Shown: piece after piece, positions 25,292-31,835 of the stretch
Position numbering within the stretch: position 1 is the stretch's first letter
Layout of the letters: every line of letters begins with the position of its first letter
NCBI GenBank assembly: GCA_015484555.1
Contig: WFMZ01000063.1
Location: forward strand, 1-34,481
DNA: 34,481 nt
Origin: Hydrogenovibrio sp.
Lineage (GTDB): Bacteria > Pseudomonadota > Gammaproteobacteria > Thiomicrospirales > Thiomicrospiraceae
Direction of reading: 5' to 3'
Program-made: the position numbers and the translations under genes
Notes under the pieces: model-generated
Database searches by the model: none
What the model saw: the letters and a program-made list of their open reading frames with translations, nothing else
What the model was told of the DNA's origin: nothing

Positions 25292-27472
25292 ATGAAAAGA
25301 ATGCTGATTAATGCAAGCCAACCTGAAGAGGTTAGAATTGCACTGGTCGATGGCCAAAAGCTATACGATCTTGATGTGGAAACCCCCCATCACCAAAAGA
25401 AAAAAGCCAACATTTACAAAGGTACAATCACGCGTATTGAGCCTAGTTTAGAAGCGGCCTTTGTAGATTACGGTTCTGAAAGACACGGATTCCTACCTTT
25501 TAAAGAAGTGGCTGAAGAATACTTTCCAACCGATTCTAGCAAAAAGCACCCTAGTATTAAGGAAGTGCTAAAAGAAGGTCAGGAAATTATTGTTCAGGTT
25601 CAAAAAGAAGAACGTGGCAATAAAGGCGCAGCGCTAACCACTCAAATCACCCTAGCGGGACCTTATGTGGTGATGATGCCAAACAACCCTAAAGCCGGTG
25701 GCATCTCCAGACGTATTGAAGGCGATGATCGTTCAGATACTCGCAGTGCTTTATCTAATATTGACCTACCTGATGGTATGGGGTTAATTATCCGTACCGC
25801 AGGCGTTGGCAAAACTTCAGAAGAATTACAGTGGAGCATCAGCTACCTAGTTCAACTTTGGGATGCCATTAAAGTCGCTTCTGAAGACAAGCAGGCGCCA
25901 TTCTTAATTCATCAAGAGTCAGACATTGTGACCTTGGCAATTCGCGATTACCTAAGACAAGACATTGGTGAAATCATCATTGACGATATGGAAACTTACC
26001 ATAAAGCCAGAGATTTCATTCAACACGTCATGCCTCATCAGGTATTTAAGGTTAAGCCTTACCAAGACACGATTCCTTTATTTACACGTTTCCAGATTGA
26101 ATCTCAAATTGAATCTGCTTACATGCGTGAAGTGAAGTTACCGTCTGGTGGCGAAATTGTGATTGATATCACGGAAGCCATGACTTCTATCGACATCAAC
26201 TCTAGTCGCTCTACCAAGGGTGGAGATATTGAAGAAACTGCCTATCACACCAACCTAGAAGCCGCTTGCGAAATTGCACGCCAACTACGTTTGCGTGATA
26301 TTGGTGGCCTAGTGGTTATCGACTTCATCGATATGCATTCAAACAAGCACCAGCGTGATATTGAAAACAAAATGCGTGATGCGGTGAAGCCTGATCGTGC
26401 AAGAGTTCAAATTGGTAAAATCTCTCGATTTGGCCTATTAGAAATGTCTCGCCAACGTTTACGCCCTTCTATTGAAGAATCCACCCAAATTGTCTGCCCA
26501 CGCTGTAAAGGTGTGGGTGTCATCCGAGGTGTTGAATCTTTAGCATTAACTATTCTTCGTTTGCTTGAAGAAGAAAGCATGAAAGAAAATACACGCCGAG
26601 TAACGGTTCAGTTACCTGTTGATGTTGCGACTTTTATCTTAAATGAAAAACGTCACCAAATTATCAGTATTGAAGAGCGCCAAGGTATGCACGTCATGAT
26701 TGTGCCAAACGAGCACCTTCATACACCGCATTACTTAATTGACCGTGTGAGAAGCACAGAAGAATTACCTGTTGGTTCTAGCTACAAAGCAAAAGAAGTT
26801 ATTAAAGAAACGGCAGAACAAATTACACAGGCACCCAAGCTTAACAAAGAAGAGCCTGCTGTTAAAAATGTTCAGCCTACTACACCACCACCTGCTGTTG
26901 CTGTTGAAAAGCCTGCTGAAAAAGTGGTTGTGGCAACCAAGCAAGAAAAATCAGACAAGCCAGGGCTAATCTCTCGTGTATTCAAATCTTTATTTGCCTC
27001 TACAGAACCCGCTGAAGTAGTTGAAGAGAAGAAAAAGTCTGAAAGACCTTCTAACAACAACCGTAACAGAAACCGCAATCGTAACCGTCGTCGCAATCAA
27101 TCTGAAAAAAATGATAAAGATGAAAATAGGTCGAATGTGGCTAAATCTGAAGGTCGTGAAAATAATTCTAACCGTGGTGGACGCAATCGTAACCGCAACC
27201 GTAACCGCAATGAAAAGCCTACTACGGATGATAGCCGTGCTAACAAAGCACAAACATCAAGTAACAACGATTCTGCTGGTCCAGCTAATAACGACAAGAA
27301 GTCTTCTTCAAATCGTAATGAGAAGCCAAGACGCAGAAGCCGTTACAACACCAGAAGTTATAACGGACGCAGACGTAAGCCTGACAATGCTGAAAGCCTA
27401 TCTATCCATTCTCTACCACCCGTTGCAAAAGCAACACCGGTAGAAAAAGCAGAGACTGATAATAGCCAGTAA
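25292..27472 (+). CDS. rne: Ribonuclease E
   Basis: RNase E is the endonuclease that starts bulk mRNA decay and processes rRNA and tRNA precursors. The start [21 protein letters not shown] is the conserved N-terminus, so ATG 25292 is used rather than any upstream codon. The S1 domain spans about residues 35-125. The catalytic aspartates lie in [10 protein letters not shown] and [11 protein letters not shown], and the zinc-link in CPRCKGVG. After about residue 500 the protein becomes disordered, with two arginine/asparagine-rich tracts ([10 protein letters not shown] and [10 protein letters not shown]). The total of 726 residues is well short of the 1061 in E. coli, so the degradosome scaffold is reduced. 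Confidence 0.96.
27058..27210 (+). repeat. Arg/Asn-codon low-complexity tracts in rne
   Basis: Two short tandem tracts of alternating CGN and AAY codons (about 27058-27098 and 27182-27210) encode the RN repeats of RNase E. They probably bind RNA and may vary in length between strains. Confidence 0.7.
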
Positions 27473-27490
27473 AACGACTATTCTCTCTCA

Positions 27491-27525
27491 CAATAAAAAA
27501 CCAGCGTTGAGCTGGTTTTTTATTG
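27491..27525. terminator. Bidirectional terminator between rne and the bufferin operon
   Basis: Perfect 15-bp arms (ending CCAGC / GCTGG, flanked by A6 and T6) enclose GTTGA. It lies 18 bp after the rne stop and about 40 bp after the convergent DUF2063 gene, and can serve both. Confidence 0.9.
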
Positions 27526-27567
27526 TCTACAGGTTTTATACATAAAACCAATTACTTTCGATTACCG

Positions 27568-28329
27568 CTATGACGTGGCCAACATCTCAATAGAGCCTTG
27601 TTGCAATCCAGTTGCAAACAGGTCATTAAACCCTTCAAAATTTTCTTGTAGCGACCACAGTGCAAGAGGTTTATTTAATTGACTATGCCAACGATAGGCC
27701 TCTTCTGTTAAGACTTGACTATGAATATTCACGCCATTACGCCATAACAAAAGCTGAGTGTCTTCTAAATCCATCGCCACTTCTTGCCAATCATCCAACC
27801 AGTACATTTCTAGTAATTTTTGAACGGGATAGGCTAGCGATAAAACAGCCAATCCTGGAATATTGACAAGACTAATCGATAAAGGATCTACCTCACCACT
27901 TTCCATCTTTTGCAAGACAACCGCATTATTATCTGGCGCTACATCCTTCGCATGAAAAACTTGATGAACCTGCCATTCTAGTGTTGCCATATCTGGTAAA
28001 TAAGGCAGGGATTGTACTGGCGCAAAAGTTGGTAGAAAAAGAGAAAATGATTCGCCATAATCATCCAACCTATCTTTTGTAGGACGATGAGATTTAATAT
28101 AGCTTTCCGCCATGGCTTCAAAAAAAGCATCGCCTACTAGGCTTTTACAAACCGGGAAAATTTCTCCCAAGGCTTTCATTACGTTGGCTAACACACTACC
28201 AGAATAAATTTTGATACTTAAAGCGGCGGGTAAGTTATGTGTCGAGTTTAATCGCTGACTAAACTGGTCATCTTCTTCAAAAACAGCAGCTAAAAACTCC
28301 GTTTGCAAAGCAAAAATATCATTCTTCAC
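27568..28329 (-). CDS. DUF2063 protein, bufferin maturation partner (BufC-like)
   Basis: DUF2063 proteins accompany DUF692 enzymes and are thought to bind the precursor leader and present it to the enzyme. The N-terminus (LQTEFLAAVFEEDD) and the region SIKIYSGSVLANVMKALGEIFPVCKSLVG fit the DNA-binding-like helical start of DUF2063, followed by YIKSHRPTKDRLDDYGESF. It overlaps the DUF692 gene by 11 nt, so the two are translationally coupled. It is the last gene of the operon, ending at the shared terminator. The domain assignment is from memory of the family. Confidence 0.8.
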   Translation of the reverse strand: MKNDIFALQTEFLAAVFEEDDQFSQRLNSTHNLPAALSIKIYSGSVLANVMKALGEIFPVCKSLVGDAFFEAMAESYIKSHRPTKDRLDDYGESFSLFLPTFAPVQSLPYLPDMATLEWQVHQVFHAKDVAPDNNAVVLQKMESGEVDPLSISLVNIPGLAVLSLAYPVQKLLEMYWLDDWQEVAMDLEDTQLLLWRNGVNIHSQVLTEEAYRWHSQLNKPLALWSLQENFEGFNDLFATGLQQGSIEMLATS

Positions 28330-29176
28330 ATTTAACTTCCTGGCTAGTAAGTTTAAGCTCTAAGACTTGTTGGCGAATAGCATCTGCTCTGGCTTTCTCT
28401 GCTATCAAGCAATCTAGGTTAGGAATATCGGTATCCCACTCTATTAAAGTCGGCACATCGCCCACTTTGGCTAAAGCTTTTTGATACAACTGCCAAACAG
28501 CGGGATAAACCTGTGCGCCATGCGTATCTAACAAATAGCCATCTTGCTCTTCATAACCCGCTAGGTGTATTTCTTGCACCCGCTCTGCGGGGATATTGTC
28601 TAAATATTCTTCAGATGAAAAACCGTGGTTATAGGCACTGACATAAATATTATTTACATCAAGTAAAATGCCACAATCTGCTCGTTTGGCAACCTCTGAA
28701 ACAAAGTCCCATTCATTCATATCAGATTGTTTAAAGGTCAGATAGCTAGAGAGATTTTCAACCAATATCTGCCGACCCAAACCCTCTTGAACCTGCTGAA
28801 TACGTTCAACAAAGTGTTGAACCACCTGCTCTGTATAAGGCAAAGGCAATAGTTCGTGACTGTTATGTTGAGGAGATTTTGAAAAACTAAGATGATCAGA
28901 AATAAGCGTTGGCTCATAACGATTAATAAGCGCTTTTAAACGCTGTAGATAATTGGGGGATAAAGGCTGACCGCCCCCTAAAGATAACCCTACTCCATGA
29001 AAAGTAATGGGGTAATCTTGCCTAACGGCTTCTAAATAAGCGTGTGGTTGTCCGCCTGCACCCATATAGTTATCAGTCATCACTTCAAACCAGGGAATAT
29101 CAGGTTTTTCGGCAAGAATAGTTTGGTAATGATCACTGCGTAAGCCGAGACCCGTCCCTTGAATTTGGTATTTCAT
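28319..29176 (-). CDS. DUF692 multinuclear iron oxygenase (MNIO), BufB-like
   Basis: MNIO enzymes are TIM-barrel di/tri-iron oxidases that modify cysteines of ribosomal peptides. For bufferins the known outcome is thiooxazole formation. Metal and active-site motifs follow in order: FEVMTDNYMGAGG, ITFHGVGLSLGG, LISDHLSFS, LVENLSSY, ILLDVNNIYVSAYNHG, EIHLAGYEE, DTHGAQV and LIEWDTDIP. At 285 residues it matches the family. It lies 75 bp after the small precursor gene and overlaps the DUF2063 gene. The exact modification here is inferred from relatives. Confidence 0.88.
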   Translation of the reverse strand: MKYQIQGTGLGLRSDHYQTILAEKPDIPWFEVMTDNYMGAGGQPHAYLEAVRQDYPITFHGVGLSLGGGQPLSPNYLQRLKALINRYEPTLISDHLSFSKSPQHNSHELLPLPYTEQVVQHFVERIQQVQEGLGRQILVENLSSYLTFKQSDMNEWDFVSEVAKRADCGILLDVNNIYVSAYNHGFSSEEYLDNIPAERVQEIHLAGYEEQDGYLLDTHGAQVYPAVWQLYQKALAKVGDVPTLIEWDTDIPNLDCLIAEKARADAIRQQVLELKLTSQEVKCEE

Positions 29177-29251
29177 ATAAAAATTGTAGAGCCTAATTTC
29201 TAAGATATTTTAAACCTCAAAAGACCTTAAAAAACTAGGTCACTATATTGG

Positions 29252-29527
29252 TTAGTGCTTAACCTTACCGCCGGTAATTCTCTGACAAGTACCTATGGGA
29301 ACATATATCCAATCTTCTGGAGAGTCATTGTGCTTAGACTGCCCAGCGCAAGCATGCTGACTCGTACCGCAATCATTCATGCCCTTCTTAACAATGCCCA
29401 TGCATTTTTCCATACCAGGCTTAGCGGCCATAACAGAACTTGCACCTACTGCGGTTAATGTCGTTGCCACTACCACCACTGCTGATTTTAAAAACATACG
29501 ACGTGCTTCTAACTTAGAATTATCCAT
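29252..29527 (-). CDS. DUF2282-like bufferin precursor peptide with four cysteines
   Basis: This 91-residue precursor has an N-terminal export signal and a short core. AAGGA lies 7 nt before ATG 29527, so the 16 residues further upstream in frame are untranslated. Residues 9-15 are RRMFLKS, a twin-arginine-like motif, followed by a hydrophobic stretch (16-31) and a likely cut after Ala34 (VMA-AK). The exported part has Cys42, 53, 60 and 81 in the order EKC, NDC, HAC and GTC, spaced 10, 6 and 20 residues, as in DUF2282/BufA1 precursors. In studied bufferins the middle two cysteines are oxidised by the MNIO enzyme and the product binds copper. That chemistry is assumed here. Confidence 0.87.
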   Translation of the reverse strand: MDNSKLEARRMFLKSAVVVVATTLTAVGASSVMAAKPGMEKCMGIVKKGMNDCGTSQHACAGQSKHNDSPEDWIYVPIGTCQRITGGKVKH

Positions 29528-29539
29528 GATATCTTCCTT

Positions 29540-29571
29540 ATGATAGACAGGTAAAATTACCTGCTTATCAT
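29540..29571 (-). promoter_or_regulatory. 32-bp imperfect palindrome before the bufferin operon
   Basis: Two 15-nt arms match at 13 positions around a 2-bp centre; the inner part CAGGTAA-TT-TTACCTG is perfect and the outer ends are ATGATA / TATCAT. It ends 13 bp before the start codon, directly against the Shine-Dalgarno, and overlaps a possible -10 (TATGAT). It could be a repressor operator or an mRNA hairpin gating translation. Confidence 0.7.
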
Positions 29572-29672
29572 ACAAGACCGCACACTAAGGAAAAACTTTC
29601 AATTTTTTAAAAATTAATATTTAGAAAAGACGAACAAAAAAACCTTTCATACATAAAGACCCAAATAGCTAC

Positions 29673-29690
29673 CCACCCCTGGCGATTTTT
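29673..29690 (-). repeat. Dispersed 3' element, copy 4 (overlapping the EEP gene stop)
   Basis: Minus-sense AAAAATCGCCAGGGGTGG shares bases with the TAA stop (29691-29689) of the EEP-family gene. The preceding ACCT can pair with GGGT. Confidence 0.85.
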
Positions 29691-30420
29691 AGGTTTTAAA
29701 GGTTGCATAAATGGGGTTGTGGTCTGATATATTTTGCGTATCGATTGCTTCTGACTTTAATAAGGTTAAGTCACGATAATAAAGATGATCAAGCGGTTTA
29801 TCAAATACTTTTTTAATATGTTGTTGGCTTTCAATCAATGCTTTTTTAAGCCCTAGCTCTAATTGAAACTTATGCAGAGCATTTACTCTTTGCAGATTCC
29901 AATTGTTAAAATCTCCCGCTACAATCATTGGCCCTGCACAACCAAACAACTTCTTTTGAATTTTACTTAATGCCTGTTTAAAAATATTACTTGAAACAAA
30001 GTTAATGGCATGCAAATTTACCACATGCAACACCTTGCCATTACTCAGTTTATGTTGAGTTAACAGCAAACTTTTCCGAGTCGCTATGCCCAACTCTTTG
30101 TAATCTGTTAAGAGCGTATCAATCTTTTCAAAACCAACTTGAGAAGCCGTTAAAACACCAAAAATATTATTAACTGTTTCTATATTACTGGCGACTGCGT
30201 AACAGTAATTTTCCAGCACATAAGGCGAAGCCTTTTGATATTTTACTTCTTGAAAAAGCAATAGTTCATAAGGTTTATTCGCTAACAAGGTACTTAGCTT
30301 AGCTTGAAAAGCAGCTTGCTGATTCTCTTTATGGATATTCCAAATCAACAGTGAAAACGCTTCCGGCAGAGCGAAAGCATTCTGTTTAATATTCCTAGGA
30401 AAGGTTTTAGGGGTAAACAT
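29689..30420 (-). CDS. Endonuclease/exonuclease/phosphatase (EEP) family hydrolase
   Basis: This is a member of the DNase I-like metal-dependent phosphoesterases. Asn28 in LLIWNIHK, Glu58 in LLLFQEVK, GDFNNWN and the terminal SDHNPIYATF give the expected Asn, Glu, Asp/Asn and Asp-His active-site set. No signal peptide is apparent. At 243 residues it is a single catalytic domain; the substrate (nucleic acid, phosphoinositide or other) is not readable. It begins 11 bp after cardiolipin synthase and its stop lies inside a repeat copy. Confidence 0.8.
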   Translation of the reverse strand: MFTPKTFPRNIKQNAFALPEAFSLLIWNIHKENQQAAFQAKLSTLLANKPYELLLFQEVKYQKASPYVLENYCYAVASNIETVNNIFGVLTASQVGFEKIDTLLTDYKELGIATRKSLLLTQHKLSNGKVLHVVNLHAINFVSSNIFKQALSKIQKKLFGCAGPMIVAGDFNNWNLQRVNALHKFQLELGLKKALIESQQHIKKVFDKPLDHLYYRDLTLLKSEAIDTQNISDHNPIYATFKT

Positions 30421-30431
30421 CTTGACCTTGC

Positions 30432-31835
30432 CTACATTTGAGGGGCTAAAATTCGCATAAAGTTTTCAGAAACTCGTCGAAGAGTTGAGGCTTCAGGCAT
30501 TTCATGGTCTGCATCTTTAATAAAGAGACTCATCCAAACCTCTACCTCCTTCACAATATCCTTTGAATAGGCAAAGCTAACCACTTCATAATTTATCAAT
30601 AGAGAGCGATTATCTAAATTAGCCGAGCCAATCATCACCGTATTATCATCTAAGAGTATCGCTTTAGCATGTAGCATACCGCCCTTATACAGCACAAGAT
30701 CAACCTCATTTTCAGCCAACTCACGCATATAAGAACTTCGGCTTAAATCTGCAAGAATATGGTTTGAGAACTTAGGAGTAATTAACTTTACATCTAACCC
30801 TCTTCGCTTAGCCATTTTCAAGGTACGATTCATCATCTCATCAGGAACATAATAAGGAGTCACTATCCAAACACGTTCTTTTGCCATAGAAATAGCATTA
30901 ATAAGGCCTTCAAACAAAGCGTCCCCTTTAATGTCTGGCCCTGATGGAACGACCTGCATAGAACTATTGCCACACTTAATACTTTCGGGCTCTTTTACCT
31001 GCCGAATAGGCTGGCCAGTAGCATAAGACCAGCCACTTTCAAACACCTGACTATATTGGTAGGTGGAACTGCCTTCTGTTTTAAACAGAACATCCTTCCA
31101 CCTATGTATCGATTCTTCTGGCCCCATATATTCTTCCGCTAAATTCATCCCGCCTGTCATCAAGGTTTTTTCATCAAACAGATAAATTTTTCGGTGGTTG
31201 CGAAGGTTAATATAGTTTTGATAAGGTAGGCGAAATAAAGGCATAAAAAATGCGACTTCCCCTCCCGCTTTGCGCAGTGGACGAAAGATGCCTTGCCAAA
31301 AGTATAAGTGAGAAGAGCCTAGTGAATCTAACAGCAACCTGACCTTTACTCCTTGTGATGCTTTTTGGGTTAAGGCCTCCAAAATGGCTTTAGTTACACA
31401 ATCCCGTTTAAAAACATAGGTGCTCATACTAATGCTTTTTTCGGCATTATTAATTTCGGCCATCATCTTATTAAAAGCTCCGACGCCATCGGTGATTAGC
31501 TCGAAATTATTATGCTGACTCACCCCAGAAATACCATTAGAACGTAAAATTCTATCGGTACTATTGATTTCTACCTGACTAACATCACCCCCTTCTTTTA
31601 AAGACAGAGCAGAATTATTATTTTTAGTGAGTTGTTTTCGCGCCCCAATGAGAAAATAAACCACGACGGCGATATAGGGGACTAAAATAATAAAGAGTAA
31701 CCATGAGATTATACTAGTTGGCGAACGCCTTTGATAAAGCATATGCAACAACGTTAATATGATCAGAAAACCGCCCGCTAAAAATCCGCTATTAAAAATA
31801 AAAAAGTTTAATAGACCTAAAAAGTCATTCTTCAT
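30432..31835 (-). CDS. cls: Cardiolipin synthase (phospholipase D family)
   Basis: Cls joins two phosphatidyl groups to form cardiolipin in the inner membrane. Two N-terminal membrane helices lie within about residues 1-65. The two HKD motifs are HRKIYLFD (followed by MTGGMNLAEEY) and HAKAILLD (followed by MIGSANLDNRS). I use ATG 31835 (467 residues), which begins 22 bp after the patatin gene stop. A longer frame to 31925 would overlap that gene by 68 bp. The ribosome site is weak, so coupling to the upstream gene is possible. Confidence 0.9.
   Translation of the reverse strand: MKNDFLGLLNFFIFNSGFLAGGFLIILTLLHMLYQRRSPTSIISWLLFIILVPYIAVVVYFLIGARKQLTKNNNSALSLKEGGDVSQVEINSTDRILRSNGISGVSQHNNFELITDGVGAFNKMMAEINNAEKSISMSTYVFKRDCVTKAILEALTQKASQGVKVRLLLDSLGSSHLYFWQGIFRPLRKAGGEVAFFMPLFRLPYQNYINLRNHRKIYLFDEKTLMTGGMNLAEEYMGPEESIHRWKDVLFKTEGSSTYQYSQVFESGWSYATGQPIRQVKEPESIKCGNSSMQVVPSGPDIKGDALFEGLINAISMAKERVWIVTPYYVPDEMMNRTLKMAKRRGLDVKLITPKFSNHILADLSRSSYMRELAENEVDLVLYKGGMLHAKAILLDDNTVMIGSANLDNRSLLINYEVVSFAYSKDIVKEVEVWMSLFIKDADHEMPEASTLRRVSENFMRILAPQM

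Follow-up and report, generated by a model that had tools for sequence, protein, structure and literature searches.

The window, i.e., the whole stretch of 34,481 nucleotides from Hydrogenovibrio sp. that was analysed, carries on its minus strand three genes in the order bufABC, which almost certainly constitute a Buf1-type bufferin operon. They lie between an EEP gene, placed upstream on the same strand (NF003842, 259 vs. 144 bits), and rne, which is downstream and convergent. The features of the locus are the following:

27568–28329, minus strand: bufC, DUF2063 partner (PME-type 1) of 253 aa with an RRE-type C-terminal half (PF09836, 72.2 bits, cut-off 27.2; fold matches)
28319–28329, minus strand: overlap of bufB and bufC, 11 nt (from the ORF coordinates)
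28319–29176, minus strand: bufB, MNIO (DUF692) bufferin maturase of 285 aa (PF05114, MbnB_TglH_ChrH/DUF692, 365.6 bits, cut-off 25; NCBIfam MNIO_BufB, NF050167, 382 bits, cut-off 310)
29252–29527, minus strand: bufA, DUF2282 (Buf1) bufferin precursor of 91 aa (PF10048, 82 bits, cut-off 22.4)
29255–29425, minus strand: predicted mature core of BufA, 57 aa, conserved across relatives, with sites assigned by analogy with Buf1 (PMC12452194)
29426–29527, minus strand: leader/signal peptide, residues 1–34, MDNSKLEARRMFLKSAVVVVATTLTAVGASSVMA, its AxA-like end VMA-AKPG judged by eye
29486–29503, minus strand: twin-arginine motif RRMFLK, residues 9–14
29539–29572, minus strand: hairpin/palindrome of 34 nt directly 5′ of the bufA ribosome-binding site, with the centre CAGGTAAAATTACCTG at 29548–29563
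29654–29662, minus strand: GGGTCTTTA, candidate promoter element upstream of bufA

Much of this arrangement had been proposed in an earlier note on the same DNA. The minus-strand operon of a four-cysteine precursor, a DUF692 MNIO enzyme and a DUF2063 partner was found at the place given there, next to the neighbors named there; the precursor has its cysteines at positions 42, 53, 60 and 81, the overlap of the last two genes is exactly 11 nt, and the assignment to the three families and to the bufferin type is confirmed by the profiles listed above. The span given for the operon, 27568–29571, is right as to the genes, and its end takes in 44 nt of the 5′ leader, for bufA starts with the ATG at 29527, upstream of which AAGGAAG serves as the ribosome-binding site. 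The start codon of bufC is a GTG located inside the end of bufB, and in Marinobacterium jannaschii (L070) the two genes also overlap by 11 nt (bufB end 4831, bufC start 4821).

The minimal gene set, which the earlier note put forward as unusual, with no DoxX and no dedicated regulator adjacent, has to be viewed differently. Locally the description is accurate: no DoxX (BufD) gene, which is frequent but non-obligatory in Buf1 operons, and no regulator was found among the ORFs adjoining the operon. Genome-wide it does not stand, since an ECF sigma/DUF3379 anti-sigma-like pair, unlinked to buf, is present on contig C7 (L197:1486-2786). Minimality as the novelty of the operon was rejected, because three-gene sets devoid of DoxX have already been described, i.e., CC2907-CC2906-CC2905 of Caulobacter, which is expressed under metal stress (PMC3511200), and fonABC, picked by its own authors as the minimal case (PMC13097082). 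The Caulobacter vibrioides loci CC3254-3257 and CC2907-2905 (Buf1, bufA1B1C1D1) resemble the window operon in gene order, in the four-cysteine DUF2282 precursor, in the BufB-type MNIO and in the PME-type 1 partner. They differ in that the Caulobacter buf genes depend on sigma-F (GTAACC-N16-CGAA), whereas the window has no sigma or anti-sigma gene adjacent to the operon.

The closest relatives of BufB in the scans run (60–62%) come from Marinobacterium jannaschii (L070) and from Neptuniibacter/Oceanospirillaceae (L071, L075), and these operons share with the window the twin-arginine leader as well as GGGTCTTTA upstream of bufA. In contrast to the window, L070 and L075 have divergent genes for an ECF sigma factor and a DUF3379 anti-sigma factor next to buf, and carry DoxX behind the buf genes; the sigma factor of the C7 pair is 37–41% identical to theirs, and its DUF3379 match reaches 107.8 bits. 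A second DUF2063 gene, likewise absent from the window, follows the first bufC in L075 (6180-6983, behind DoxX) and in L071 (3974-4774). The hairpin at 29539–29572 is a candidate operator or mRNA hairpin. Its centre has a single perfect copy in the genome, with one single-mismatch site (contig C13) and 15 two-mismatch sites, and the reversed-pattern control gave 2 matches; the RNA fold of 111 nt around the hairpin has a z of -2.97. As the operator of a regulon the palindrome is at most a candidate, for there is one perfect site only, and no link to the second captophorin operon of this genome (L082, see below) emerged. Rfam gave no match in 27000–30500, and the count of sigma-70 promoters was not above that in shuffles.

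One may ask if the operon, once acquired, is decaying or inactive, having lost DoxX and the regulator, and makes no product. No other member of the genus has bufABC, and the sigma/anti-sigma genes and DoxX of L070 and L075, as well as the DoxX of L199, are missing from the window. Against this, the three ORFs are intact, the putative metal-ligand residues of BufB are conserved, the ribosome-binding site, the gene overlap and the structured 5′ leader are kept, and the Caulobacter set without DoxX is expressed under metal stress, so that decay appears very improbable.

The alignment of BufB with five relatives revealed conservation of H60, H95, E140, N141, D173, N175, N176, H204, D217, H219, E246 and D248, which we take to be the expected MNIO metal-site residues and putative ligands, and in a tree of MNIO enzymes BufB sits among those associated with Buf1 precursors. 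The AlphaFold2 model of BufC (mean pLDDT 86) matched in Foldseek the PME1 structure 3DEE (TM 0.71 by target) and also the MNIO partner TglI (chains 8hi7/8hci); the NCBIfam HvfC profile is not reached by BufC (41 of 142 bits). The conserved residues of BufB and the fold match of BufC together imply that the window holds a complete modification set. As for the substrate, the four cysteines of BufA align with those of its relatives. Buf1 chemistry consists of a 5-thiooxazole at each of the two central cysteines and a disulphide joining the outer two (PMC12452194), and by analogy Cys53 and Cys60 are expected as thiooxazoles and Cys42 and Cys81 as a disulphide. The loss of about 4 Da per two modified cysteines expected in the earlier note is wrong by a factor of two, as thiooxazole formation removes 4 Da for each modified cysteine (PMC13097082); the change computed for BufA with two thiooxazoles and the Cys42–Cys81 disulphide is about -10 Da, from 6125.90 to 6115.83 Da for the mature peptide on the assumption that the leader is removed behind Ala34. 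Judged by homology, this chemistry, together with copper binding and the periplasmic site, would apply to the window BufA.

The most distinctive feature of the window operon, missed by the earlier note, is the twin-arginine leader. The leader of BufA starts with MDNSKLEARRMFLK-SAVVVV, and the Tat consensus (S/T)RRxFLK is present before an uncharged h-region, EARRMFLK-SAVVVVATTLTAVGASSVMA, with agreement at five positions (R, R, F, L and K) and with A, not S/T, at position -1. The leaders of Caulobacter and other described Buf1 precursors, on the contrary, are Sec-type, and published surveys call such precursors Sec-exported. The window BufA looks like a Tat substrate and may work like one; TatC is encoded in the same genome (223.6 bits). 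In the openly accessible literature, to which the search was confined, nothing on Tat export of any such RiPP was found, and the term Tat is absent from the two main bufferin/captophorin papers.

To place this leader, DUF2282 precursors were sampled class-wide (matches in 98 of 369 genomes), phylum-wide (103 of 398) and in the order of the window (5 of 63); further ones came from the nearest BufB relatives in GTDB and from two more region sets, and the leaders were then typed. Exactly six out of 106 distinct DUF2282 (Buf1) leaders contain the pattern [KR][KR]-x-[FALIVM]-[LIVM]-K, namely those of the window (RRMFLK), of Marinobacterium jannaschii (RRDALK), of Neptuniibacter and an Oceanospirillaceae MAG (both RRDAIK), and of two genomes from another order (KRTFLK and KRAFLK), which gives RR in four of the six and KR in two. 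Arginine makes up only 17% of the basic residues in n-regions of the DUF2282 leaders, so RR is not the default there. In L023, L029, L074, L089, L106 and L110 an apparent RR was rejected, as it lies upstream of the likely start methionine. A maximum-likelihood tree was built from 108 MNIO enzymes, with the precursors left out, and in this tree the six motif-bearing operons form exactly one clade (bootstrap 99, SH-aLRT 93); on it the leader motif requires one change, compared with 4–6 in 500 label shuffles of 78 Buf1 operons. The confinement of the motif to one enzyme clade, with a single change, indicates that the leader type is inherited with the system and is not scattered noise; by the same single origin the six carriers cannot be counted as independent events. 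Taken together, the motif and the clade lead us to lean, with modest confidence, towards export of the window BufA by Tat.

Tat signal h-regions tend to be less hydrophobic than Sec ones. The h-region of the window leader has a hydropathy of 1.74, and Sec-type relatives have a mean of 1.56 (sd 0.29), thus the two are not separated. The window precursor has no match to the Tat profiles PF10518 (TAT_signal) or TIGR01409, and its relatives score 14.2 (L070), 13.8 (L015) and 8.1 bits (L071) with TAT_signal, all below 22.7. These results fit an ordinary Sec-exported Buf1 bufferin, in which RRMFLK is a mere positively charged n-region and the product is a periplasmic copper-binding thiooxazole peptide as in Caulobacter. 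All family profiles are consistent with it too, and according to PMC12452194 experiments have demonstrated that a bufferin of Caulobacter is exported by Sec. It explains less well why, where arginine is rare in n-regions, a pattern of two basic residues, any residue, two hydrophobic ones and lysine should be limited to one enzyme clade. We consider such an ordinary bufferin a serious possibility, short of an even chance.

A related proposal, which overlaps with ordinary Sec export, is that RR-x-F-L-K is the site by which BufC and BufB recognize the leader (binding to the RRE), with export by Sec. A recognition role would give a reason for conservation of the motif under Sec export; the motif tracks the enzyme clade, and preliminary results mentioned by the authors of PMC12452194 make the signal peptide a part of BufB-BufC recognition. 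Yet, at R, R, F, L and K the motif agrees with the Tat consensus, and the same motif occurs on precursors of a different MNIO clade, those with EGKCG repeats in the window's family, which pass the Tat profiles. A recognition site is therefore, in our judgment, unlikely to be the explanation.

The EGKCG captophorins/oxazolins (fontiphorin, HvfA) share with the window operon the combination of MNIO and PME1, 5-thiooxazoles derived from cysteine, and copper, but differ by a repeat precursor in place of the four-cysteine DUF2282 fold and by a separate MNIO clade. The window genome has such an operon on contig C45 (L082:5238-7989), where an EGKCG-repeat precursor, DoxX, MNIO and PME1 are found together. 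Its precursor (L082:7570-7989) has the leader MAKQSRRNFLKMAGAVAVATVSGSAVA and passes both Pfam TAT_signal (24.9 vs. 22.7) and TIGR01409 (22.8 vs. 16.7), as does a precursor of a sister species, whereas published EGKCG captophorins are described as Sec-type. The tree includes 14 typed EGKCG-type operons from the window's family, 13 of which have RRxFL leaders and one of which does not, and RRGFI is found in L190, an additional precursor from this family; in a class-wide search for this leader motif no typed precursor outside the family had it after the start methionine. RR leaders are thus present in two MNIO clades, one Buf1-type and one EGKCG, of each of which the window genome has a member. 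The perfect Tat leader on the other captophorin of this genome suggests that the lineage uses Tat for such peptides, which speaks against an ordinary Sec-exported bufferin. For the loci L063 and L064 (genomes G003 and G007) no precursor was found within the DNA fetched around them. About 6 kb from the L082 operon a multicopper oxidase with the Tat-like leader MKRRTFLQ is encoded. In three members of the genus (G001, G011 and G004; loci L076, L077 and L080, respectively) the repeats are mostly GNCG, i.e., Asn-Cys for Lys-Cys, and these precursors carry SRRxFLK leaders; GNCG repeats may represent a substrate variant for thiooxazole-forming MNIOs.

Among 12 members of the genus, it is in the window genome alone that a DUF2282 gene is accompanied by its own MNIO set. 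The only other DUF2282 gene in the genus, that of G008 (L081:2688-4118), encodes a stand-alone precursor with a leader different from that of the window; behind it come genes for an ECF sigma factor and for a protein that matches no Pfam family, and no MNIO was found in this 82%-complete genome. Conservation of the buf operon across the genus was accordingly rejected. In the DNA fetched for other genus members the EEP gene is not beside rne, and a plasmid search returned only distant DUF2282 relatives. In the MNIO tree the window BufB groups with Oceanospirillaceae and not with Buf1 operons of its own family (L116, L118 and L119), and horizontal acquisition would be the simplest reading of these gene comparisons.

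Tat export is post-translational and prefers folded cargo. The explanation that we favor, by a small degree of confidence, is a bufferin operon of the Buf1 type with a Tat-like leader. Here BufC would present BufA to the iron enzyme BufB, which, in the cytoplasm, would turn Cys53 and Cys60 into 5-thiooxazoles. The finished BufA would then exit via the twin-arginine route, not via Sec, lose its leader, form the Cys42–Cys81 disulphide and buffer copper in the periplasm. Because Tat acts post-translationally and prefers folded cargo, BufBC would gain time to act and only the finished peptide would be exported. A bolder proposal, which we regard as improbable, is that Tat exports the peptides of one bufferin clade and also, independently of these, the EGKCG captophorins found in the family of the window, both already folded and metal-loaded, as disposable carriers. 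If this is true, they would load copper or another metal while still in the cytoplasm and bring it out, and would not be only periplasmic buffers filled after Sec export. An analogy is provided by the cupins MncA (Tat) and CucA (Sec), in which the export route sets the folding compartment and hence the metal acquired (PMC8867077); these are cupin proteins, not RiPPs, and the comparison with the window bufferin is limited to that analogy.

Copper peptides modified by MNIOs are very widespread, and how an export-tagged precursor stays in the cytoplasm for modification is an open question; the Discussion of PMC12452194 argues that some mechanism must keep the unmodified precursor from being exported too early by Sec. 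A Tat leader, if it works as such, would be one natural answer to this problem. Surveys that select by a predicted Sec signal peptide, e.g., the 2025 landscape study, could then under-count such precursors. A clade that has apparently moved to Tat makes the retention question testable via leader swaps between sister operons, and the choice between Tat and Sec would determine the compartment of metal loading.
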